NCBI GenBank assembly: GCA_017461365.1
Contig: JAFTYG010000076.1
Location: 1 to 63,949, forward strand
Direction: 5' to 3'
DNA from: Clostridia bacterium
GTDB lineage: Bacteria > Bacillota > Clostridia > Oscillospirales > CAG-272
DNA length: 63,949 nucleotides
The notes under the pieces were generated by a model. That model made no database searches. It had not been told where the DNA came from and saw nothing but the letters and a program-made list of their open reading frames with translations. Shown here piece by piece: positions 8,072 through 34,462 of the stretch; position 1 is the stretch's first letter, and each line of letters opens with the position of its first letter. The translations under genes and the position numbers were made by a program.

Positions 8072-8959
8072 ATGAATTACAAATACCATCTTGATAATTC
8101 GTATCATAAGACTCCTCTGTTTTTCGGGCAGACTCGTTTGTGGCAGATAGGCAGGCTTTACTGCAAGCCCTCAAACAAGATAACGGCGCATAAGCAACCA
8201 CAGGACGTTTACGAGCTTACGGTCGTTACCTCGGGCAAGGGAACCGTGTACATAAACGGAGAGGGCGTACCCGTTAGGGCGGGGGATATTCATTTGGCTT
8301 TTCCCGAGGAGCTGCATGAGATAGTATCCGACGGCTCGGATCCGTTGCACTTTGATTTCTTTTCATTTGTCAGCTCTAATGAGGAATATCGGGGTGAGCT
8401 TTTGCGTATCTCGGCAGAGAACAGAGACGTCGACAAGCGCGTATTTCACGACGACAGCATATGCGACTTTGTGCGGAGCGGAATAAGAGAGATAAACGTA
8501 AAGGACAAGTACTTCGATAAAATGATGGCGAATATATGCGAGCAGATAATAATAAGCGTTATCCGTTCCTTTGAGCGCACCGCGAAGGGAGAGCAGAAGA
8601 ATACTGCCACCGATGCCGACTCGCTTTGCTATCAGGCGATGGATTACATAGACAGTCACCTTTTTTCGATGCGCAGTCTTACTGAAATATCAGACTCAAT
8701 GAATTATAATTACAGCTATCTTTCCAATCTTTTTAAAAAGAATATGGGACAGGGATTGCTTGATTATTACAGAATACGCCGACTTGAAATATCAAAGCGT
8801 CTGCTCCTCGAAAAGGGAAGAAATATAACGCAGATCGCGGAGATGCTCAACTATTCTTCGGTATATGCATTCAGCAGAGCATTTCGCGCGCAGTACGGAA
8901 TATCACCAAATCAGTATAAAAAGAACAACGCCTCGGACATTGTCGATGGCTCCAAATAA
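8072..8959 (+). CDS. AraC-family transcriptional regulator with cupin sensor
   Basis: 295 residues. The N-terminal part is a cupin-like sensor (GKGTVYINGEGVPVRAGDIH, about 62-82), expected to bind a small ligand such as a sugar. The C-terminal 100 residues hold the two helix-turn-helix units of AraC/XylS regulators: SLTEISDSMNYNYSYLSNLF and ITQIAEMLNYSSVYAFSRAF followed by YGISPNQYK. AAGGAG precedes ATG 8072. It converges on the small peptide and the secreted repeat protein at 9013-12267, and an AraC gene of the same architecture lies next to the similar surface locus at 33605, so control of the neighbouring surface genes is likely but unproven. Confidence 0.9.
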   Translation: MNYKYHLDNSYHKTPLFFGQTRLWQIGRLYCKPSNKITAHKQPQDVYELTVVTSGKGTVYINGEGVPVRAGDIHLAFPEELHEIVSDGSDPLHFDFFSFVSSNEEYRGELLRISAENRDVDKRVFHDDSICDFVRSGIREINVKDKYFDKMMANICEQIIISVIRSFERTAKGEQKNTATDADSLCYQAMDYIDSHLFSMRSLTEISDSMNYNYSYLSNLFKKNMGQGLLDYYRIRRLEISKRLLLEKGRNITQIAEMLNYSSVYAFSRAFRAQYGISPNQYKKNNASDIVDGSK

Positions 8960-8967
8960 AACAATTA

Positions 8968-9014
8968 AAATATCCCATCCTCGGCTTTTTCGTGGCTGAG
9001 GATGGGATATTTTT
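8968..9014. terminator. Bidirectional terminator between the AraC gene and the small peptide gene
   Basis: Long inverted repeat AAATATCCCATCCTCGG / CTGAGGATGGGATATTTTT. It ends the AraC transcript and, read on the other strand, the peptide operon; it touches the stop codon of the latter. Confidence 0.9.
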
Positions 9015-9168
9015 ACGTTAGCTTGTCAAAATCTATTTCTGTGCCCGTTCCTTTTCCGCCGTCTGCGACACCGATAAAGGTGTCGTCGGGATCGTTTTCG
9101 GAGAGGGTGAGAATATCTTCCTTGGCAAAATACAGGATGGAAGAGATTGGAGACGTATATATTTTCAT
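9013..9168 (-). CDS. Small 51-residue protein of unknown function, paired with a secreted repeat protein
   Basis: ATG 9168 follows a good RBS (AGAGGTG) and lies 12 bases behind the stop of the large surface protein, so it is the second gene of that operon; TAA is at 9013-9015. The product begins MKIYTSP, has FAKEDILTLSE in the middle and an acidic, Gly-rich tail (DGGKGTGTEIDFDKLT). It has no cysteine, signal peptide or membrane segment. A second small gene at 33391, also behind secreted proteins and before an AraC gene, encodes a peptide with the same plan (MK.Y/V.TP, then EDI[LV]T[LI]S at the same distance). I know no characterised family for it; a peptide signal, adaptor or modified peptide precursor are possibilities only. 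Confidence 0.7.
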   Translation of the reverse strand: MKIYTSPISSILYFAKEDILTLSENDPDDTFIGVADGGKGTGTEIDFDKLT

Positions 9169-9180
9169 TTTTCACCTCTT

Positions 9181-12100
9181 TTATCTTGCCTGCATTACGC
9201 CGTGAACGTAGGTTACGTCTCTGGACGCGCCCAAATATTCATTTCCCGCATCATCGACCGCATACGGAGTTGCCGTCAGAGTAACGCTTCCGTCGGAGGA
9301 TATTCCCTCAAGCGGAATATTGTTTACTATCACGGCGTAGACATACGTTCCGCCGAGAGACTCTGCGCTTATCTCTGTCTGCTCTCCGCCGTTTTCCGTA
9401 GCGAGCAGTGTGGTGAACACATAATTGCTGTCTATGTCAATAGGCTTACCGTCGTTTGCTTGCAGACGGAGCCCAAGCTTTTTATAGCTCAGCGTGTCGT
9501 TTACGGTTATGATGAAGCGAACCGAGAATACCTCTTTTTCAGCTCCGTTTACCGTGATCTTCTCGGTCGTTCCTTGCTGAACGCCGTAGACCGCGGGAGT
9601 GCCGAGAACGATATACGTTCCGTCTGTGCTCGGCATGAATTTGCCGAGCTTGCTTGCGTATGTATTGCTCTCGCTGTTGAGAACGGCAAGGATACTGTCA
9701 ATATCTTCAAGCGTTTCGGTTCCGCTGCTTGAGTTTTTGAGCTTTACCGATCGGTTGTTTTCAAGAATGGGCTCTCCGCCGTAGACGATCTGCGTATCGG
9801 TGTTGTTTTCAGCTTTTCCCGCATTGACCGAATTTTTGACCGTGAGCGTATTTGTATCGGTATATCCGACTATTGCGCCCGAGCCTGCCGTTGCAGAGCC
9901 GACCGTGCCGAGATTTACCGCGCCCGTTACGTATATTTCGCTCTCTCCCATAGCGACACTTGTAACGGCGCCTGCGTATGCGTTCGGCATATTGCCCGTA
10001 TTCGCTACGTTGCTTGTATTTATCATATCGCTTACGGTGAGCTTCGTCTTTTCGCCGATATGTCCGACAGCTCCGCCTGCGTACGCCGCCCCGATAACTT
10101 CTCCGCGTGTAAGTCCTCCGCTGATGATGACTGTCGATGTGTCCTCTGCGCTTGCGACAGAGCCGATATATCCGCCCGCTGAGCCTTCGTTGGAAGTGAT
10201 GCTCGCGTAGCTGTTGCAGTCCGTCATAGAAATACTTCCGAACGATCTGCCTATATATGCGCCCATATCGCCGTTTCCGACGGCAACGCAACAAATATCA
10301 ATATTCTCAAGTGTGAGCGACGAGCCCGCAGAAAGCTCTCCGACAAGCGCGGCGGCGCTGTCGACAGATGCCTCTGCCTTTACAGATATGCAATTGTTTT
10401 CCCATCCGAGCCTCAACGATCTTACGGTAGAAGCTCCTTCAATATTCATAAGTCCGCAATTTACGGCAGAATAGTTATATATTGCGTATCCGTTGCCGTC
10501 AAGCACAGAATTGCAGAGTGTTGCTGCGGTGGAAGAAAGCTCCTCGCCCGACATATCAATATTGTCCGTGAGTGTGAATCTTCCTCTTGTATAGTTCTTT
10601 ATCGCTTTGAGCTCTTCTTTTGAGGATATATCTACCGAAAGATCGGTAAGCACATATCCGTTTGTGATTATTTTTCCGTTATTTACTGCATTTATGATAC
10701 CCGTGAGCTGTTTTCCGCTTACGGGAATATCCAAGAAGCTTGCGTTTGTGTTCAGTGTGACCGTTGCCGCGCTCTTGCCGTCGGCAATTGCGAGTATGGC
10801 ATCGGTTACGGGCGCCCATATTTCAAAGCTCAGCGTTACCGTCTGCGACTCGCGTGTATATGCCGCCGTTGCGGTTGCCGTGCCTATGTCGGTGTTATTT
10901 GTATATGTGATCTCTCCAAGAGGCTCACCGAGCCAACCTGAGCTGTATTCTACCGTAACGGGCGTTTTAGGCTGTCCGTCGTATTGGAGAGAAGCATTTT
11001 CGGCGAGCTTCAGCGTTGCCGTTGCCGTGTGTCCGCAACCGCAGGAGCAGGTCTCGGTTATAACGTTTTCGCTTGCCTTGTGAGTCAGTGTGTGTTTATT
11101 GTTATACACTGATACACCGATCATGATCATAGCCATTGTGCCGTCTTGCGCTCCGGTTTTTATGGAGGTTGCCGACGGATCGGAAAATACAAGATTTGTC
11201 ATTCCGTCTACGTCTTTTCTGTGTCTGCTTCCTGCGTAGATCGCTATATCGTCGTCCGATGAGCTGAAGGTAATATTAGCGCCGCTTCCAAGTACAAGCG
11301 TGATGTTTCCGCTGACTCCGCGCGAGCTTTGCCACTTGAATAAATCATATTCGTTATAGCATCCGCCGTAAATTCTGCGTGAGACCGTACCGCCCCACAC
11401 CCGCAGAAGCACGTTTCCCGTCACCATTGCTCCCTCCGAGCCTCCGAATATCTGTTCGAACGTACCGCCCGTGACGGTGGTAACGGTGTTGCTTACGCAA
11501 TCAACGTCCTTTCCCGCGCCGTAGATGCTCATTACATTGCCGCCTATGGCATTGAGATAGGCGGTGCCCGAGATCTTAGCGCCCGAGCCCTGAGATCCGC
11601 CGTAAATGTAGTTTGCCTTCATATTGTCGGCTACCGTCAGATTGGTATTGCCGCCGACCGTATCACTGACACCGCCACCGAAAACAGTATATATAGCATC
11701 GTGGCTTGCCGCGTCGCAGGCGGAGTTAGCACTTCCGCCGACGTACACGTTTGTGTCGCCCGTAACGGTTCCTTTGTTACTTCCGCCATAGATCTTGTAG
11801 TAGTTACCCGAAAGGAGAGTGAGGCTCGTGCTCGCGACCGTCGTGCCTCCGCCTCCGCCGTAGATCGCTGAGACTGTACCCGAAACGGTAACATCCGAGT
11901 CTACCTTAAGGGCGTTTCCGTTGGCGCAGACCGTGCCTTTCCACTTCAGGGTAACGTTATCGAATGTCACGTTGTCTCTTATATTGAGAACTGACAGGCC
12001 CGACGCGTCGAAAGTGCCGCCTGTGATAGTTACCGACTTACCGTGAGCCGTCCAATTGAAGCCCGATGGCAGGGTGTACGTTCCTTTTACGGTAATAGTA

Positions 12101-12267
12101 CCGCCGTTCTCAACGTTATTGATCGCCTCGTTGAGGTCGCTGTATTCCGCGTTGGCGCCACTGTTGGAAAGGGTAACTCCCCCCGCCGCAAAAGCGCCCG
12201 TTTCGGCTATCGGAACGATCAGCATGATCAGTACAAGCGCAAGCGCTAAAGACAATACTTTTTTCAT
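9181..12267 (-). CDS. Large secreted beta-helix/GLUG-like surface protein
   Basis: 1028 residues from ATG 12267; AAAGGA has the right spacing for this codon and not for an ATG six bases earlier. A Sec signal peptide (KK, hydrophobic core, GAFA-A cleavage about residue 26) is followed by a long run of short Gly-rich beta repeats (YGGGG, IYGGSN, VFGGG, IYGGSQ, IFGGSEG) that look like a right-handed parallel beta-helix to about residue 390. A middle domain and then GLUG-like repeats (LDGNGYAIYNY, GALVGEL-type, GGYIGSV, GGAVGHIG) follow to about 860. The last 136 residues form a separate domain (FSVRFIITVNDTLSYKKLG ... VTLTATPYAVDDAG) shared with the protein at 26840. Likely extracellular adhesion or glycan binding; no LPXTG or SLH anchor is seen. 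Confidence 0.8.
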   Translation of the reverse strand: MKKVLSLALALVLIMLIVPIAETGAFAAGGVTLSNSGANAEYSDLNEAINNVENGGTITVKGTYTLPSGFNWTAHGKSVTITGGTFDASGLSVLNIRDNVTFDNVTLKWKGTVCANGNALKVDSDVTVSGTVSAIYGGGGGTTVASTSLTLLSGNYYKIYGGSNKGTVTGDTNVYVGGSANSACDAASHDAIYTVFGGGVSDTVGGNTNLTVADNMKANYIYGGSQGSGAKISGTAYLNAIGGNVMSIYGAGKDVDCVSNTVTTVTGGTFEQIFGGSEGAMVTGNVLLRVWGGTVSRRIYGGCYNEYDLFKWQSSRGVSGNITLVLGSGANITFSSSDDDIAIYAGSRHRKDVDGMTNLVFSDPSATSIKTGAQDGTMAMIMIGVSVYNNKHTLTHKASENVITETCSCGCGHTATATLKLAENASLQYDGQPKTPVTVEYSSGWLGEPLGEITYTNNTDIGTATATAAYTRESQTVTLSFEIWAPVTDAILAIADGKSAATVTLNTNASFLDIPVSGKQLTGIINAVNNGKIITNGYVLTDLSVDISSKEELKAIKNYTRGRFTLTDNIDMSGEELSSTAATLCNSVLDGNGYAIYNYSAVNCGLMNIEGASTVRSLRLGWENNCISVKAEASVDSAAALVGELSAGSSLTLENIDICCVAVGNGDMGAYIGRSFGSISMTDCNSYASITSNEGSAGGYIGSVASAEDTSTVIISGGLTRGEVIGAAYAGGAVGHIGEKTKLTVSDMINTSNVANTGNMPNAYAGAVTSVAMGESEIYVTGAVNLGTVGSATAGSGAIVGYTDTNTLTVKNSVNAGKAENNTDTQIVYGGEPILENNRSVKLKNSSSGTETLEDIDSILAVLNSESNTYASKLGKFMPSTDGTYIVLGTPAVYGVQQGTTEKITVNGAEKEVFSVRFIITVNDTLSYKKLGLRLQANDGKPIDIDSNYVFTTLLATENGGEQTEISAESLGGTYVYAVIVNNIPLEGISSDGSVTLTATPYAVDDAGNEYLGASRDVTYVHGVMQAR

Positions 12268-26839: not shown

Positions 26840-29800
26840 ATGAAAAAAACATTAGCAATCTTCCTGTCGCTCGTAATGCTGTTTTCGGTATTCAGCGTTA
26901 TGGCGACCGCGACTGACGGTACACAAACCGTTTCGGACGCGATCGAGATCGACACGGCTGAGGAATTCCTCAATATTCCCACCACAGGTCTCGACAAAAA
27001 CTATATCCTGACAAAGGATATAACCATCACAAGCGATGCATATTCACCTATCGGTGATTATACAAACCGCTTCAAGGGTACATTCGACGGTAACGGTAAG
27101 ACCATTACTGTTGATATTACCTGCACAAACGTAGTTGACACTGCAGAGGGCGGACATACTATGGCAGGCGCAAAGTATGTAGGTCTTTTCGGCGCAACTG
27201 AAGATGCAACCATTAAGAACTTGACGGTCAAGGGCGAAATGACCGTGGCTGTGGCATACGGCTGTATCGGCGGAGTCGTAGGTGCGGCGTTTGGCGAAAC
27301 GACAGTTAAAAACGTTGTGACCGACATCAATATGGCGGTTAAATTGGACGACGGTGACAGCAAGATCGAGCATCTGGCTTCAAACGTGGGCGGCGTTATC
27401 GGTCGTATCCATCGCAAGAACGCTGATACTACCGATATGGTAACAGTAACGGTTGAGGATGTGTACACCCTCGGTACACTCTTCGTTGATGATAATGAGG
27501 AGAATACAGGTACTGCTCCTGCGGGAGATGCAGAATACGTTTACGGCGTGGCAGGTACACCTGTTGGCGGTATGATCGGTCTTATCGGACACCTTGTTGA
27601 CTTGCAGATCACAAGATGCGTCAACTTCTCAGATGTGAGAGTAAGCGCAAGCGGCGGTAACATAGCGGGTATTATCGGTATGAACGCGTACAAGGTTGAC
27701 GGCGCTAATCCCGCAAGCAAGGACATGATGAAGATAACGATGACGTGGTGCGCAAATCACGGCGACGTTATCCGTACGTATGATAACGGTGAACGTGTTT
27801 CTGCTATAATCGCTTGTATGCAGGGAACGGTAGCTATGGAGAATTGCTATAACTCGGGAGTGCTCAGTGATTCGACAGGCGTAGATAACTATCAGAAGGA
27901 TACTCAGATGGCGGGCTTCTTCGGTAACGTAAGTATGTGTTATATGAAGAACAGCTTCTCGACGACCTTTGTTGACATATTTATGGTAAAGGCTACCGAT
28001 ACGAACCGCACAAACGTAGCGGCGTGCACCAAGAATTTCGTCACGTCCGATTGCGGAACTCCCGCAGGCGCTACTGCGCTTGATTACGTAGCGGGCGATT
28101 CGGCTGACCGTATGTACAGCCTGCTCGTAAAGGAATATGAAGGCGAGGAGATGGCGACAAAGCTCGAGGTTCGTGAGATCGAGGGCGAGAGAGTTATCTG
28201 CTTCAACTTCGTTCCTGCTTTTACTGACAGTGCAACCGTAATAGAGATAGACAGCGCAGAGGAATTTGCAAAGATCGGCAACGATGCGGGCTATCCTCTC
28301 AGCGGCAGCTACAAGTTGACTGCTGACATAAACGTTGGAAATACCATGATAGGCAGCTATGCAGCTCCCTTTACAGGTAAGTTTGACGGTAATGGCAAGA
28401 CTGTAACGGTCGATATTGACTATACCGACCTTACTACAACAAATACCGTTGCGGGATGCGCGAACGTTGGTCTGTTTGCTTGTATCAAGAACGCAACGAT
28501 ATGCAACGTAAATGTAAAGGGCACAATGGACGTCAAGACTGTCTGCGGATATATCGGCGGACTCGTCGGCGGCTCTTACGGTGAAAGTAACATATACGGC
28601 TGTGACGTTGATGTGCAGATGACTCTTGTACTTGACGGTGCGGCTAAAGCTGAGATTGAAAACGCAAAGAACTATGCGTCTATGGTAGGCGGCGTTGTCG
28701 GTATGTTCCAGCATAGCGGTACTGATATGATGCAGAGATCGGATGTACGCAACTGTGTTAACCGCGGAGATATTTCCGTTACAAGCGCGGCGACGGGAAC
28801 CGGAACAGCAAGCACCTACAGCGCCGGAGGAAACGGTGGATACGGCGGTATAGTCGGCGCTTCGGGCTGCACATCTCAGCAGGGATGCATGGACGTTGAA
28901 ATTACCGATTGTATCAACTACGGCGATATTACCGTTAATATGGGTGCGCAGAATATCGGCGGAATTATGGGCATGACAAGTACGAGTGGTGTATCCAGAG
29001 CAACTCTGTTCCGTTGCGCAAACTACGGTGATATTACAAGAGGTCTCACTTACGCTGACCGTGTAACAGCAACCGTCGGATATACAAGATTCTGCGACGT
29101 ACAGTATTGCATGAACGCAGGAAACTTGGATGCAGGTCCTAAAACTCATCCCGATGATGAGACGGTTACGCTTACTCCCCTGACAGCTATTATCGGTCAC
29201 TCTACAAAGCTTAACCGAAATCACAAAAACTTCTCGCTTACAATTGCAGATTATTTCAAGAGCTCTAAGGGCACGGCGATACTTTCCGCAGGTAACTATT
29301 ACCTCAGTGATCAGAACGCTTCCAATACAGTAGGAACAGCCCTCAGCGTAAGCTCCGAGGCAACTCTCGTAGAGATCATAAACGCGTATGTTGCAGCATT
29401 TGCAAATAACGACGGAATGTCCTCTACCTTCAAGGCGTACGGTATCTACAACACAGCAAATGGTACAGGCGCATACATCGGCTTCTCCAAGCCCGAGGGT
29501 GTAACCTACTACGGCTATCAGACGACCAACGTATCTGACGGAACCTACAACATCCGTTTCGTTTCTCTCGTTGACTCTCTTGTATACGAAAAAGTAGGCT
29601 ACCAGATCAAGGGTACGTACTACGATGCGGCTAAGCAGAAGAACGTAACTCTCGTATGGAACAAGGAGTGCTCCACCGTTTACACGTCCCTTACGGGCTC
29701 TGTTGACGGAACCGAGATCGCATACTCTGTCGTAGGCAGCGACTACATTATGGCTCTCGCTATCACCGACGTTCCCGTATCTGTAGGTGAGATAACATTT

Positions 29801-29884
29801 GAGATAACACCTTATTCTGTAGATGACGGTGTAACGACTAACGGAACGGCTAAAACTATCGTTTATACTCCCGCAGCAGAGTGA
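26840..29884 (+). CDS. Large secreted GLUG-repeat surface protein with two tandem modules
   Basis: 1014 residues from ATG 26840 (AAAAGGAG upstream). A Sec signal peptide ends near MATA (residue 24). Two copies of a ~420-residue module follow, starting at about 34 and 466; each opens with I-E-I-D-[ST]-A-E-E-F, has G-x-F-D-G-N-G-K-T-[IV]-T-V-D-I and then GLUG-type strands (VGLFG, GGVVGAA, GGVIGRI, GGIMGM). Such repeats form beta-helices in adhesins and carbohydrate-binding proteins. Residues 890-1014 are a separate domain (YNIRFVSLVDSLVYEKVGY ... ITFEITPYSVDDG) that also ends the protein at 9181. No cell-wall sorting signal is visible. First gene of a cassette with two lipoproteins, a small peptide and AraC. 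Confidence 0.8.
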   Translation: MKKTLAIFLSLVMLFSVFSVMATATDGTQTVSDAIEIDTAEEFLNIPTTGLDKNYILTKDITITSDAYSPIGDYTNRFKGTFDGNGKTITVDITCTNVVDTAEGGHTMAGAKYVGLFGATEDATIKNLTVKGEMTVAVAYGCIGGVVGAAFGETTVKNVVTDINMAVKLDDGDSKIEHLASNVGGVIGRIHRKNADTTDMVTVTVEDVYTLGTLFVDDNEENTGTAPAGDAEYVYGVAGTPVGGMIGLIGHLVDLQITRCVNFSDVRVSASGGNIAGIIGMNAYKVDGANPASKDMMKITMTWCANHGDVIRTYDNGERVSAIIACMQGTVAMENCYNSGVLSDSTGVDNYQKDTQMAGFFGNVSMCYMKNSFSTTFVDIFMVKATDTNRTNVAACTKNFVTSDCGTPAGATALDYVAGDSADRMYSLLVKEYEGEEMATKLEVREIEGERVICFNFVPAFTDSATVIEIDSAEEFAKIGNDAGYPLSGSYKLTADINVGNTMIGSYAAPFTGKFDGNGKTVTVDIDYTDLTTTNTVAGCANVGLFACIKNATICNVNVKGTMDVKTVCGYIGGLVGGSYGESNIYGCDVDVQMTLVLDGAAKAEIENAKNYASMVGGVVGMFQHSGTDMMQRSDVRNCVNRGDISVTSAATGTGTASTYSAGGNGGYGGIVGASGCTSQQGCMDVEITDCINYGDITVNMGAQNIGGIMGMTSTSGVSRATLFRCANYGDITRGLTYADRVTATVGYTRFCDVQYCMNAGNLDAGPKTHPDDETVTLTPLTAIIGHSTKLNRNHKNFSLTIADYFKSSKGTAILSAGNYYLSDQNASNTVGTALSVSSEATLVEIINAYVAAFANNDGMSSTFKAYGIYNTANGTGAYIGFSKPEGVTYYGYQTTNVSDGTYNIRFVSLVDSLVYEKVGYQIKGTYYDAAKQKNVTLVWNKECSTVYTSLTGSVDGTEIAYSVVGSDYIMALAITDVPVSVGEITFEITPYSVDDGVTTNGTAKTIVYTPAAE

Positions 29885-29934: not shown

Positions 29935-31473
29935 ATGGCAAAAATGACAAAAAGAATATTATGTATAACTCTTGCTCTTCTTATGCTTCTCGTTTCCCTC
30001 GCCGCTTGCTCGAACGACAAGGGCGATGAGGAAGAAAGCAAGGAGCAAACAAATAACGACGTAGTAGATACGGGTACGACTACTACTCCCACAGAGGACG
30101 AGGGCGACGGCTTTGACCTGCCCGACACCGATTGGGGCGGACGCGACTTTACTATGCTCGTACGTTCTGCCAGATTGGACCAGTTCGGAGAGGGCGACAT
30201 CGAATTCGGAAGCTCTCAGCTCGACAAGGCTATCTACGAAAGAAATCAGAAGGTACAGACCGAGTACAATATCAATATCAAGTGGCTGACGGTTCCCGAT
30301 ACGGGCGCTGACGGCGTAAAGGGCTCGGATATGGTGCTCAAGCTCGATGCTTCCGCTCTCGGAGGATGCAAAGACTACGACGCCGTTGCTCCCGACTACT
30401 ATTGGAAGTGTGAGACAAAGGGATATTTTGTCAATCTTCTTACTCTCGATTATTTCAACTTTGACGCCCCTTGGTGGTGGAGCAACTGGAACGAGTGCTA
30501 CACGCTTGACAACAAGCTGATGACCTGTGTGGGTTGGCTTACTCTTGACATCGTTCAGGGTATGGAGGTAGTGTACTTCAATACTCAGCTCATGGAAGAG
30601 ACGACCGACGAGGACGTATATGAGCTCGTTTACAACGGCGAGTGGACTCTTGACAAGATGATACAGCTTTCCAAGAATGCGACCTACAACGTTCAGTGGT
30701 CGGGCGCCCCTGGCGAAACAGGCGCTCTCGGTGACGATTACGTTCACGGAACTATTCTTCACTACATGGGCTTGCGCTCTCTCTTCTTCTCACTCGGCGG
30801 ACGCTTTGCAAACTACGAGGATGACGGTTCTATAACCTATAGCTTTGCAAACAACAAGAACCAGAGCATCGTATCCACCCTCTCCGAGTGGATAGTAGGT
30901 AACCCCGAGGTATTCTACGCATCCTACAACAAGGTCAACGGTCACGGTCTCGGTGTAAACGAGCGTCCCACAGATACCGCTGAATACTTTGCAGGCAACC
31001 ACGCGTTATTCTATTGCTACGGTCTGAGAACGGCAGAGCTTCTTGCAAGCCTTGATATGGAATTCGGAATACTTCCTCCTCCCACTGCCGAAGAGGGCGC
31101 GGAATACGTTACCACCACGTTCGGTACGTCCTATTTCGCTATCGAGAGAGGACGCTCCCAGGAGCAGCAGGAGTTCGCGGCATTCATTCTTGAGGCTCTG
31201 AACTACTACTCCTACACGATGGTAAAGGACGTATATTACGAAAAGACCTTGAAGCTTCAGTACGGCGGAACAGACGTACAGGCTAAGGACATGATCGATA
31301 TGGTCGTTGAGCGTGCATACCTTGACTTCGCTTACATAAGCCAGGCAGGCTATCTTATTGAAAAGGTTCTTGACTGCATTATGAACGAAACGAGCCTCAG
31401 CTCGGTATGGATCTCCAACGAGTCGAACGTAACAAGCGCTCTTGCTAATTATCTGAACGGTTATCTGAAATAA
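29935..31473 (+). CDS. Extracellular solute-binding lipoprotein (ABC-type, family 1-like)
   Basis: 512 residues. Lipoprotein signal with lipobox LAAC (Cys at about 25), then an acidic/Thr-rich linker to about 60. The body has the plan of large sugar-binding proteins of ABC importers, with WKCETKGYFVNL, DAPWWWSNWNEC and YFNTQLMEE (the hinge-strand element followed by an asparagine). A WWW cluster near residue 180 suggests a stacking site for a glycan. No permease or ATPase genes are next to it, so it either uses distant ones or acts as a binding protein only. GGAGGG precedes ATG 29935. It lies 50 bases after the surface protein gene and 14 before the next. Confidence 0.82.
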   Translation: MAKMTKRILCITLALLMLLVSLAACSNDKGDEEESKEQTNNDVVDTGTTTTPTEDEGDGFDLPDTDWGGRDFTMLVRSARLDQFGEGDIEFGSSQLDKAIYERNQKVQTEYNINIKWLTVPDTGADGVKGSDMVLKLDASALGGCKDYDAVAPDYYWKCETKGYFVNLLTLDYFNFDAPWWWSNWNECYTLDNKLMTCVGWLTLDIVQGMEVVYFNTQLMEETTDEDVYELVYNGEWTLDKMIQLSKNATYNVQWSGAPGETGALGDDYVHGTILHYMGLRSLFFSLGGRFANYEDDGSITYSFANNKNQSIVSTLSEWIVGNPEVFYASYNKVNGHGLGVNERPTDTAEYFAGNHALFYCYGLRTAELLASLDMEFGILPPPTAEEGAEYVTTTFGTSYFAIERGRSQEQQEFAAFILEALNYYSYTMVKDVYYEKTLKLQYGGTDVQAKDMIDMVVERAYLDFAYISQAGYLIEKVLDCIMNETSLSSVWISNESNVTSALANYLNGYLK

Positions 31474-31487
31474 GCGGGGTAAGAGCT

Positions 31488-33368
31488 ATGAAAAAGAAGA
31501 TATTTGCAATTCTGTGCGCTTCTTTAGCCCTTATGATGCTTTTCTCAGCGTGTAACAACACAACGGACGATCCCGAGGACAGTGTTACCGACACGTCTAC
31601 CCCCGATGATACGTCGGGGGAGACTGAGCCTGTCGTCGAGGTCGAGCCCACAAAGGTCTCCGATTACGTTATGATCACTCCCAAAAATATGACAGACTGG
31701 GAGACCGATATGGCGAACAGTCTATATTCCAAGGTCGAGAGCAAGACTGGTGTCAAGCTCGAATACGAGGCGGAAAATTACACCTCAGAGACCGACGAGA
31801 GATATGAGATCGTTGTGGGTATTACGGGACGCGCGGAGACGACCGAAGCGCTCAGCAAATTAAGTTTTAACGAGTACGGAATTTTTGTTTCTGACTACAA
31901 GATAGTCATTACGGGATGGACCGACTACACAGCAAGACTTGCTGTACTCGAATTCAACAACCAGATAGCGGATTTCCTAACCGCAGGAGAAGATGGCGTG
32001 TATTACTTTGATTTTGATGGAAACAATGAATTTAAGTACGTCTATACAGACTACTACGGAGAGCTCCCTCCCTTTGAGGGAACTGTAAGCGGTGTGTATG
32101 ACTGCGGCGACGATTGCTATTCCGTATGGTACGGGGATGCGGCTGATACCGCATTTGCAAGCTATTCGGCAACCGTTGCGGGCGCGGGCTACACGCTTAC
32201 GAACGAGAACAAGATCGGTTCAAATTCCTATGCAACGTACATAAAAGATGACAGACTTATCCACATCTACTACGTTTCGTCGGAAAAGTCGCTCCGTGTT
32301 GTTTACGGTCCCAACGACGTAAACCCCGAACTTATGCAGACAGAGGCAGAACAGGCATCCGCGAAGAAGGTAACTCCCTCCGCAACTCTTATGCCCATGA
32401 AGTATATTTCTGCCGAGGGTGGCGGAGCTTGTATGGTATTCCTTCTTGAGGACGGCACGTTCTTCGTTATCGACGGAGGATGGAAGGAAGAGGCTGACGT
32501 TCTTTACAACACGCTCAAGGCGCTCAACGAGGACGCAAACGGTCCTGATGCTCCTATAGTTATTTCGTCCTGGTTTATGTCTCACGGACACGGCGACCAC
32601 TACGGATGTCTCTACGCGTTCGCGCCCAAGTACGGCAAGGAGGTCATTGTGAACTCCTTCATATGCAACGGTGTACACGACGTTCAGACCTCCAGCACAC
32701 GTGTTGCGACCGACACGTATCTGCAAAAGAACAAGCTCAAGTCGGGCGCTCTGAACTATTTCAAGACATCTGACGGCGAGATACCTCAGGTAATGAAGAT
32801 CCACACGGGACAGAAGCTTACGTTCGGCGGAGCTGAGATAGACGTTCTGTTTACTCATGAGGACGTTTTCGACAAGAAGATCACAAACTTCAACGATTTC
32901 AACACTATCCTTCGTCTGAAGCTCGGCGGAAATACCTTCATACTTGCAAACGACGCTTGTAAGAAGGAGCTTCCCGCGATGATCGAGGAGATAGACGACG
33001 AAGAGCTGCAGGCTGAGTTCTGTATGGTAACGCACCACGGAGCGGACAGCGGATACACTGAGTTCTACAGAGTTGTGGGAGCTAAGTGGTATTTCTGGCC
33101 CAACTCCAAGGCGCATTTCATCCGCGATACCGAAACGTTGGCTCTCGAGTGGGCAGTGTACGTTGTAAACAACAATGAAGAGCTCTATCTGGCTGATACC
33201 TACTGTAACACGCTTGTGCTTCCTTATGAGGCGGCTTCGGTTATCAAGTGGAATCCCGATAACGAAAAGCCCTCCGATTATCATTCGGATTATTCGGTAA
33301 GCATAACGCCATCTTACGGTGAGACAGCTAAATGGACAGACGGCGTTGAGCCTTCGGCAAACGCATAA
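31488..33368 (+). CDS. Lipoprotein with a C-terminal metallo-beta-lactamase fold
   Basis: 626 residues. Lipobox FSAC (Cys21), an acidic Thr/Asp linker to about 50, an unknown N-terminal region (55-300) and a C-terminal metallo-hydrolase domain. The latter has SHGHGDH (365-371, HxHxDH metal motif), ILANDAC (Asp489) and VTHHGADSG (His516-517), the order seen in the ComEC/Rec2-type branch that acts on phosphodiesters or nucleic acid. An export signal on such a domain is unusual. The protein should sit on the outer face of the membrane. Start ATG 31488 has GGGGTAAGAG. It is followed after 22 bases by the small peptide gene. Substrate unknown. Confidence 0.8.
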   Translation: MKKKIFAILCASLALMMLFSACNNTTDDPEDSVTDTSTPDDTSGETEPVVEVEPTKVSDYVMITPKNMTDWETDMANSLYSKVESKTGVKLEYEAENYTSETDERYEIVVGITGRAETTEALSKLSFNEYGIFVSDYKIVITGWTDYTARLAVLEFNNQIADFLTAGEDGVYYFDFDGNNEFKYVYTDYYGELPPFEGTVSGVYDCGDDCYSVWYGDAADTAFASYSATVAGAGYTLTNENKIGSNSYATYIKDDRLIHIYYVSSEKSLRVVYGPNDVNPELMQTEAEQASAKKVTPSATLMPMKYISAEGGGACMVFLLEDGTFFVIDGGWKEEADVLYNTLKALNEDANGPDAPIVISSWFMSHGHGDHYGCLYAFAPKYGKEVIVNSFICNGVHDVQTSSTRVATDTYLQKNKLKSGALNYFKTSDGEIPQVMKIHTGQKLTFGGAEIDVLFTHEDVFDKKITNFNDFNTILRLKLGGNTFILANDACKKELPAMIEEIDDEELQAEFCMVTHHGADSGYTEFYRVVGAKWYFWPNSKAHFIRDTETLALEWAVYVVNNNEELYLADTYCNTLVLPYEAASVIKWNPDNEKPSDYHSDYSVSITPSYGETAKWTDGVEPSANA

Positions 33369-33390: not shown

Positions 33391-33528
33391 ATGAAATATG
33401 TAACTCCCACTGCCGAAATTCAGGTTTTGCGCACAGAGGACATCGTGACGATCTCGATCTCAGAGATCGCATCGTACGGATCGTCGGTTGGTTTCTGGCA
33501 GGGAACTGAAGAAGATTTCGGCGCATAA
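33391..33528 (+). CDS. Small 45-residue protein related to the one at 9013
   Basis: ATG 33391 is eight bases after AAAGGAGG; a longer frame upstream would overlap the lipoprotein end and has no RBS. The product begins MKYVTPTAEI, has RTEDIVTISIS in the middle and ends in an aromatic, acidic tail (GFWQGTEEDFGA). It lacks cysteine, a signal peptide and membrane segments. Its start and the EDIVTIS block line up with MK.YTSP and EDILTLS of the peptide at 9013-9168, which also follows a secreted protein. The gene lies between the MBL lipoprotein and the AraC gene. No known family; see the findings. Confidence 0.7.
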   Translation: MKYVTPTAEIQVLRTEDIVTISISEIASYGSSVGFWQGTEEDFGA

Positions 33529-33604: not shown

Positions 33605-34462
33605 ATGGCATTTGAATACACCCACAAGGGTGACGAATTCGTATTTGAAAATTATATTCCGTCCTCGGGCAGCGAGATACTGTATATTCAGCAGGCAGGC
33701 TATACCTCGCCGCGCGGAAGTTACCATATCAAGAGGAAAGCCTCGGTAAAGAACGTGATGTTCGTTATCGAATACATCCTTGACGGAAAGGGATATATAA
33801 TATACGACGGCAAAAAGTACAGTGTTGGCAAGGGCGATTTTTATATGCTCGACGACACGCACGACCATCAGTATTATTCGGATCAGAATGAGCCCTTGTC
33901 CAAAATATGGATAAACGCGTACGGCAGCTTTATTGAAAAGAACGTGGAGTCGTTCGGATTTCCGCATATTATCATACAGCACGTTGACGTTGAGGAGGAG
34001 CTTCTCGCCATTCACAATATGCTGAAGGGAAAGACGGCTTACGAGGCAAAGGAAATGACTGCGGAGCTTTGTGTGGGACTCTTCCGACTTTTCTATAAGG
34101 TGTACGTTGATTACAGAGATAAGCGTGAGCACGGAGACAGACTTTTCAAGATACAGAATTACATTCAGGAGCATATCACCGACGGTGTTACCGTTGAAAA
34201 GATATGCGCGGATAACTTTATCAGCAAGTCAACGCTGTACAGACTGTTCAAGACCGAGCTCGGAATATCGCCTACCGAGTATATCAAAAATCAGAAGATA
34301 CGTATCGCGTGCAGGATACTTAAGCTGACAAGCATTGATATAAGCGAGATAGTCAGACAGCTCGGATTTTACGATAATTCTCATTTTTCGAGAACGTTTT
34401 ATTCGGTGATGAATATATCTCCCGCCGCGTATCGAAAAAGCAAAGACAAAAAATTGAATTAG
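33605..34462 (+). CDS. AraC-family transcriptional regulator
   Basis: 285 residues from ATG 33605 (GAAAGGGAAGAG upstream; the frame continues further up but crosses the hairpin). The N-terminal cupin has GKGYIIYDGKKYSVGKGDFYML; the C-terminal double helix-turn-helix has VEKICADNFISKSTLYRLFK and ISEIVRQLGFYDNSHFSRTF with ISPAAYRK. Architecture is the same as the AraC protein at 8072, which neighbours the other surface-protein locus. It probably senses a carbohydrate-type signal and controls the cassette upstream; the ligand is unknown. Confidence 0.9.
   Translation: MAFEYTHKGDEFVFENYIPSSGSEILYIQQAGYTSPRGSYHIKRKASVKNVMFVIEYILDGKGYIIYDGKKYSVGKGDFYMLDDTHDHQYYSDQNEPLSKIWINAYGSFIEKNVESFGFPHIIIQHVDVEEELLAIHNMLKGKTAYEAKEMTAELCVGLFRLFYKVYVDYRDKREHGDRLFKIQNYIQEHITDGVTVEKICADNFISKSTLYRLFKTELGISPTEYIKNQKIRIACRILKLTSIDISEIVRQLGFYDNSHFSRTFYSVMNISPAAYRKSKDKKLN

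Follow-up and report, generated by a model that had tools for sequence, protein, structure and literature searches.

Linear polyphosphorylated peptides (LPPs) were described in 2026, mainly from Bacilli, and are represented by LppA, K, B, S, D and N of Paenibacillus alginolyticus (PMC13381572; here and in all comparisons below, statements on LPPs and paeninodins follow this paper). Their gene set comprises a RiPP (ribosomally synthesized and post-translationally modified peptide) recognition element (RRE), an HprK kinase, a SipW-like peptidase, a nucleoside triphosphate (NTP) transferase, an MsbA-like transporter and precursors with a YxxP leader. One to three precursors lie inside each cluster, often in capsule loci. 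Multiple phosphates on core Ser3, cleavage after Thr-1 and binding of YxxP by the RRE were shown for LPPs, and the leader motif was given as YxxPxVLxHQxIxFETxxS. The biological role of LPPs and paeninodins is stated as unknown in the Discussion of that paper. Here, a contig of 63,949 nt from a Clostridia bacterium (JAFTYG010000076.1 of assembly GCA_017461365.1; in the following, the window) was analyzed, in which two small open reading frames (ORFs) lie close behind genes of secreted proteins (Table 1). These ORFs very probably (probability of roughly 0.8) encode leader-core precursors of an LPP-like RiPP system that acts in trans, with products that may be accessories of surface proteins.

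A Shine-Dalgarno-like stretch is located just 5' of both peptide ORFs. The N-terminal motif common to the two peptides is Y-x-x-P (MKI-YTSP in peptide 1, MK-YVTP in peptide 2), and EDI[LV]T[LI]S follows at an equal distance; in either peptide, the Ser of this motif is 19 residues downstream of the Tyr. A preliminary description of this DNA had correctly placed the two small ORFs, the secreted proteins of about 1000 aa and two AraC genes with cupin and helix-turn-helix (HTH) parts; it was also right about the equal spacing of EDI[LV]T[LI]S, while the start that it read as [YV]-x-T-x-P has to be replaced by Y-x-x-P. When used as single queries, peptide 2 found 8 further places in the genome (E 0.007–0.95) and peptide 1 found three. 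A profile of 12 N-termini gave 25 matches in the genome, 24 of which, those at E < 0.1, are small ORFs; the 25th (contig C47, E 0.38) sits in a frame of 508 codons and was excluded. A broader profile added C12:130393 as a further peptide place. Since contigs C52 and C92 carry copies of one peptide sequence, there are 25 places with 24 distinct peptides. As these searches recovered many further places, far above chance, the likeness of peptides 1 and 2 is due to paralogy. Thus, both small ORFs belong to a genuine multicopy family. The contig pairs C69/C74 and C52/C92 of this genome (G000) repeat the same genes, i.e., the assembly is partly redundant.

All neighbor counts given below cover the first 24 places, and the sequence anatomy covers their 23 sequences. 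Across the paralogues, a conserved leader is followed by a variable, acidic tail. The distance from the Tyr to the conserved Ser is 19 in 22 sequences and 20 in one; the residue at this position is Ser in 22 sequences and Thr in one. Three residues after the Tyr, Pro was found in 21 of the 23 sequences and Ala in the other two. With the leader assumed to end two residues before the conserved Ser, by analogy with LPPs, the predicted cores comprise 23–35 aa, are free of Cys and carry a net charge of -2 to -6. None of the 23 members matched an NCBIfam, Pfam or PADLOC family at E 0.01, and the leader profile matched no PDB chain at E 1.

At all 24 places, an ORF on the same strand ends 0–33 nt before the peptide. 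A signal-peptide-like start, as called by a simple hydrophobicity rule, was observed in 21 of these 24 upstream ORFs; of the remaining three, those of L051 and L055 are truncated by a contig end, and that of L042 is a 241-aa fragment without a signal peptide. At the second locus of the window, the 626-aa lipoprotein-like protein directly precedes peptide 2, and the repeat protein is encoded two genes further up; a lipoprotein-like gene is also immediately upstream of the peptide at L040. Surface proteins 1 and 2 had no Pfam match, and surface protein 1 had no NCBIfam family either. Secreted surface proteins and small peptides are genuinely paired, and this holds generally, as other genomes show the same arrangement. 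The 241-aa surface-protein-like fragment (L042:7138-8335) stands before its peptide and beside a short AraC-type ORF, in what looks like a rearranged locus.

A C-terminal beta-sandwich domain of about 110 aa is common to 15 of the 24 ORFs upstream of peptides. Judged by coordinates, the peptide directly follows the domain at 15 of its 20 places in this genome and directly precedes it at one; at three further places a peptide lies further along the same gene run, and at one place none was found. Comparison of the domain with PDB sequences yielded no convincing match. The link between domain and peptide was used for a prediction test in genome G028, where 13 of 18 domain places were read. The domain was found at the protein end in 11 cases and internally in two. 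A peptide was present at 8 of the 11 proteins ending in the domain, with four of these eight peptides having been missed by the profile search, and at neither of the two internal places.

The candidate maturation enzymes of this genome are encoded on another contig, as a trio of HprK-like kinase, PqqD-type RRE and SipW-like peptidase (C69:1521-2986; Table 1). The kinase profile had one match in this genome. A structure model of the kinase was not used (mean predicted local distance difference test score (pLDDT) of 57). In the peptidase, Ser33, His73 and Asp89 are invariant in all 11 aligned rows. PqqD matches were found in 46 of the 59 genomes of a family-level sample, comprising all 17 with the peptide and 29 of the 42 lacking it. 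From the 17 peptide-bearing genomes, 18 PqqD loci were read (L130, which repeats L129, was not counted and L131 was left out); the kinase adjoins PqqD in 17 of them, and the exception, L148, is a cluster with a radical S-adenosylmethionine (SAM) enzyme. No precursor gene lies inside the cassette locus of this genome. Its one match to PF14907 (NTP_transf_5) is on yet another contig (L218:6225-7388; G000:C85), and NTP_transf_5 was confirmed by Pfam in the relative locus L145. The surroundings of L218:6225-7388 resemble a polysaccharide locus and are thus reminiscent of the capsule loci that often harbor LPP clusters in Bacilli. S-layer-homology proteins are encoded beside the kinase and PqqD genes at L142:7169-7948 and L143:9134-10078 (genomes G043 and G053), which fits a surface role without proving it.

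Peptide and kinase co-occur across genomes. In the family-level sample, the peptide was found in 17 of 59 genomes, this genome included. Among 245 genomes sampled from the order, 57 had the peptide, 67 a match to the kinase profile (E ≤ 1e-10) and 53 had both. A strong kinase match (E ≤ 1e-50) was present in 51 of the 57 peptide-bearing genomes compared to 9 of the 188 others (odds ratio of 169, Fisher p of 2e-36), and after removal of eight genomes of this family in 44 of 50 compared to 8 of 187 (p of 6e-33), with both p-values ignoring shared ancestry. Five of the eight excluded genomes had given rows to a profile. This removal was incomplete: named genomes had likewise contributed to the peptide profile, and for one of them (L095) the peptide is identical to that of sample genome G270. 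In a sample of 348 genomes from the phylum, the peptide was matched in 4 and the kinase in 12 (E ≤ 1e-10), and the 4 genomes with the peptide were the sole ones with a kinase match below E 1e-45.

In several relatives, precursor and enzymes are neighbors. The peptide is encoded directly before the kinase in G044 and G053 and with one gene between in G043; by coordinates, at least 9 of the 53 order-sample genomes having both carry it no more than 1.3 kb upstream of the kinase and in the same orientation. By reading, L096 has the order peptide, kinase, RRE and peptidase. A locus of an Oscillospiraceae metagenome-assembled genome (MAG; L111:8001-12705), likewise read, is a self-contained cluster with a 34-aa precursor, a radical SAM enzyme, an HprK-like kinase, PqqD, a SipW-like peptidase and an MsbA-like ABC transporter. 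Of 31 loci from named genomes, mostly Clostridia MAGs, 14 have a large ORF that ends 10–38 nt before the peptide (in two cases truncated by the locus end). Another 11 (L088, L098, L099, L100, L101, L103, L106, L107, L112, L113, L115) have a related YxxP leader, longer and often Cys-containing tails and a different consensus; at five of them (L099, L101, L112, L113, L115), a radical SAM motif is visible in a neighboring ORF. These long-tailed YxxP peptides beside radical SAM genes are a related RiPP type. Of the other six, L096, L108 and L111 have the peptide beside the kinase or PqqD, L093 has it ahead of a gene of secreted type, and L102 and L105 show no informative neighbor. In 19 of 29 order-level loci, an ORF of 100 aa or more ends no further than 35 nt before the peptide (L200, with 108 aa, is doubtful), where the short flanks indicate ORF position and not secretion.

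The likeness to LPPs extends to precursor and enzymes. The peptides combine a YxxP leader and a conserved N-terminus with a variable tail, and a Ser stands three residues into the predicted core. A discrete RRE, an HprK-like kinase and a SipW-like peptidase with Ser, His and Asp are encoded in this genome; among relatives, NTP_transf_5 occurs in some loci and an MsbA-like transporter in L111. The precursor is in or near the cluster in L096, L111, G044 and G053, and separated by one gene in G043. In contrast to LPPs, the host belongs to the Clostridia, and about 25 precursors are dispersed across the genome, where they accompany surface proteins. Because cleavage motif, layout and host class differ and the RRE profile is nearer to lasso RREs than to LppB in the PDB, the system is named LPP-like and is not claimed as a proven member of the LPPs. 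Paeninodin-type phosphorylated lasso peptides are similar in RRE, HprK-like kinase, NTP transferase and [Y/W]xxP leader (PMC13381572), but the peptidase here is SipW-like, and no B2 peptidase or macrolactam cyclase was recognized beside the cassette of this genome. The kinase also matches ScmC of the SynChlorMet cassette (TIGR04249) at E 9e-9, but with 35 bits compared to 125 bits at the curated cut-off. In search listings of the open-licence literature and in passages of PMC7533575, nothing was found that connects such peptides with surface proteins, an absence that is weak given this scope.

A number of observations weigh against the assignment to an LPP-like system with surface-protein partners, in addition to the neglect of ancestry in the p-values. 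The cleavage-site consensus is D-[IV]-x-T-x-S here compared to F-E-T-x-x-S in LPPs, the Tyr-Ser distance is 19 instead of 18, and the full published leader motif is absent. When the RRE profile was compared with the PDB, LppB (3.1e-5) ranked behind TbiB1 (2.8e-10), TfuB1 and PbaB1, and these better-matching RREs are actinobacterial lasso RREs. The cassette of this genome is flanked by neither a transporter gene nor an NTP transferase gene. Of the 17 kinase-PqqD loci, 12 show a SipW-like peptidase (that of L147 forms the start of a longer ORF), whereas simple ORF lists of L132, L135, L139, L141 and L143 showed none. A strong kinase match was missing from 6 of the 57 peptide-bearing genomes of the order, and 9 of the 60 genomes with a strong kinase match had no detected peptide. 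The phylum sample adds little: two of its four peptide genomes (G000, G076) were already in the order sample, and the other two, from beyond the order, have weak peptide matches (E 0.002 and 0.007). The match in G319 lacks YxxP, and its locus has kinase and PqqD but no peptidase; the match in G469 has YNKP without the D-[IV]-x-T-x-S end and adjoins kinase, peptidase and a radical SAM gene. In G028, 3 of the 11 proteins ending in the domain have no peptide. Divergence of core and partner domain was correlated in this genome (r of 0.29, p of 0.003; with local scoring r of 0.20, p of 0.03), and 14 leave-one-out runs kept p ≤ 0.03, but omission of the L039 sequence lowered the correlation to r of 0.13 (p of 0.13), and it failed in nine pairs from G028 (r of -0.13, p of 0.79). 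Co-divergence, positive at first, was rejected on account of this dependence on one sequence and the failure in G028.

The following mechanism is proposed. The precursor would be made from the same operon-like run as the large secreted protein, as spacing and strand suggest. By analogy with LPPs, the PqqD-type RRE may bind the YxxP leader, the HprK-like kinase may phosphorylate the conserved Ser at Tyr+19, and the SipW-like Ser-His-Asp peptidase may cut off the leader near this Ser. A linear acidic peptide of roughly 23–35 residues would result, and the single cassette on contig C69 would serve about 25 precursors on many contigs. Least supported is the final step, in which the product would be exported and become an accessory of its partner surface protein, e.g., a ligand, stabilizer or tether of the C-terminal domain. 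The maturation link between peptide and cassette is strong, and the role of the product is put forward here as a suggestion. Tentatively, and at somewhat less than even odds, this may be a structural rather than a chemical-warfare class of RiPPs: each large surface protein would be delivered with its own phosphorylated peptide matured by one shared cassette, giving about two dozen displayed pairs in which the peptide would serve the C-terminal region of its co-encoded partner as a ligand, tether or maturation factor. An LPP-like machine is tied here to cell-surface proteins by position and co-occurrence, so that its role becomes testable, and this gives a clue to the possible function of a recently described type of modified peptide. 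RiPP mining for precursors beside enzymes would probably miss most of the precursors found here.

The cassette could also mature a product that acts on its own, as a secreted signal or antimicrobial, with the surface-protein operons as a mere convenient expression site and the partners unrelated. The precursors beside the kinase in some genomes, the L105 peptide without an adjoining surface gene and the lack of reproducible co-divergence between cores and the partner domain would suit such a product. However, large proteins of quite different kinds are arranged this closely with a peptide in many genomes, and among the G028 loci that were read, a peptide was found only where the domain is C-terminal (with just two internal cases). 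An independent product is considered unlikely, though it deserves to be taken seriously. Improbable is a function of the peptides as small cytosolic partners, i.e., secretion chaperones or translational regulators, with the cassette association as a phylogenetic by-product. No signal peptide is apparent on the peptides, and there is one per secreted gene at tight spacing, as would be expected for cytosolic partners, but precursors stand beside the kinase in several genomes, the genome sets of peptide and kinase largely coincide, a conserved N-terminus with a variable tail is a RiPP layout, and peptides with a related leader adjoin radical SAM genes.

Maturation to lasso peptides by a remote cyclase would agree with the YxxP leader, the PqqD matches to lasso RREs, and the HprK and NTP transferase that paeninodin clusters also contain; about 500 nt away from the peptide of G006, the opposite strand carries an ORF resembling asparagine synthase, the type of enzyme to which lasso cyclases belong. 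It is nevertheless very improbable: a SipW-like peptidase takes the place of B2, and neither B2 peptidase nor cyclase was recognized by eye around the cassette of this genome, for which no genome-wide search was made. Most improbable of all is the unit envisaged in the preliminary description, a regulatory cassette of surface protein, peptide and AraC regulator in which the regulator would bind the peptide as its ligand. An AraC gene adjoins the peptide at both loci of the window, but just 3 of the 24 places have an AraC-type gene within 500 nt, and the count rises to 5 when the distance is extended to 1 kb, to 7 for 3 kb and to 9 for 5 kb. Precursors of an LPP-like system acting in trans, with products as accessories of surface proteins, remain the favored interpretation.

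Table 1. Features of the two window loci and of the cassette locus L129. Positions without a locus number refer to the window.
Feature	Position	Strand	Remarks
Putative precursor peptide 1 (51 aa + stop)	9013..9168	(-)	YxxP leader + acidic tail
Putative leader of peptide 1, residues 1-20, YTSP at 4-7	9109..9168	(-)	boundary two residues before conserved Ser, by analogy with LPPs
Ser23 of peptide 1 (Tyr+19), candidate phosphorylation site	9100..9102	(-)	Ser in 22/23 paralogues; phosphorylation suggested by LppA Ser3
Putative precursor peptide 2 (45 aa + stop)	33391..33528	(+)	YxxP leader + acidic tail
Ser22 of peptide 2 (Tyr+19), candidate phosphorylation site	33454..33456	(+)	suggested by LppA Ser3
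Large secreted surface protein 1 (1028 aa from ATG 12267)	9181..12267	(-)	stop 12 nt before peptide 1
C-terminal beta-sandwich domain of surface protein 1	9196..9528	(-)	model mean pLDDT 79.9, weak FN3-like fold matches
Large secreted surface protein 2 (1014 aa from ATG 26840)	26840..29884	(+)	
C-terminal domain of surface protein 2	29546..29869	(+)	same family as in surface protein 1
Lipoprotein-like protein (512 aa)	29935..31473	(+)	between surface protein 2 and peptide 2; no family above cut-off
Lipoprotein-like protein (626 aa)	31488..33368	(+)	metallo-beta-lactamase match PF00753, E 4e-5; 22 nt before peptide 2
HprK-like kinase	L129:1521-2228		GTGKST and GTPW-GK motifs; TIGR04249 match below curated cut-off
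Discrete PqqD-type RRE	L129:2242-2505		PF05402, E 3e-17
SipW/SEC11-like peptidase	L129:2498-2986		signal peptidase matches below cut-off; SEC11 profile E 6e-4
AraC-family regulator beside peptide 1	8072..8959	(+)	cupin + HTH; no constant part of the unit
AraC-family regulator beside peptide 2	33605..34462	(+)	cupin + HTH; start codon inferred; no constant part of the unit

The AraC genes of both loci match the family of YSIRK-targeted surface antigen transcriptional regulators (TIGR04094), the name of which recalls a regulator beside a surface protein gene, but their scores of 58 and 77 bits compared to a cut-off of 200 bits show that they are not members. With an AraC gene within 500 nt at 3 of 24 places, AraC was rejected as a constant member of the unit. 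The functional unit proposed earlier is thereby reduced to secreted protein and peptide (same strand at 24 of 24 places, signal-peptide-like start at 21). A profile search of the kind suggested at that time returned recurrent matches behind large ORFs in other genomes. A modified peptide had been one of the options left open, and it is the one favored by the evidence, which includes a cassette elsewhere in the genome whose kinase co-occurs with the peptide.

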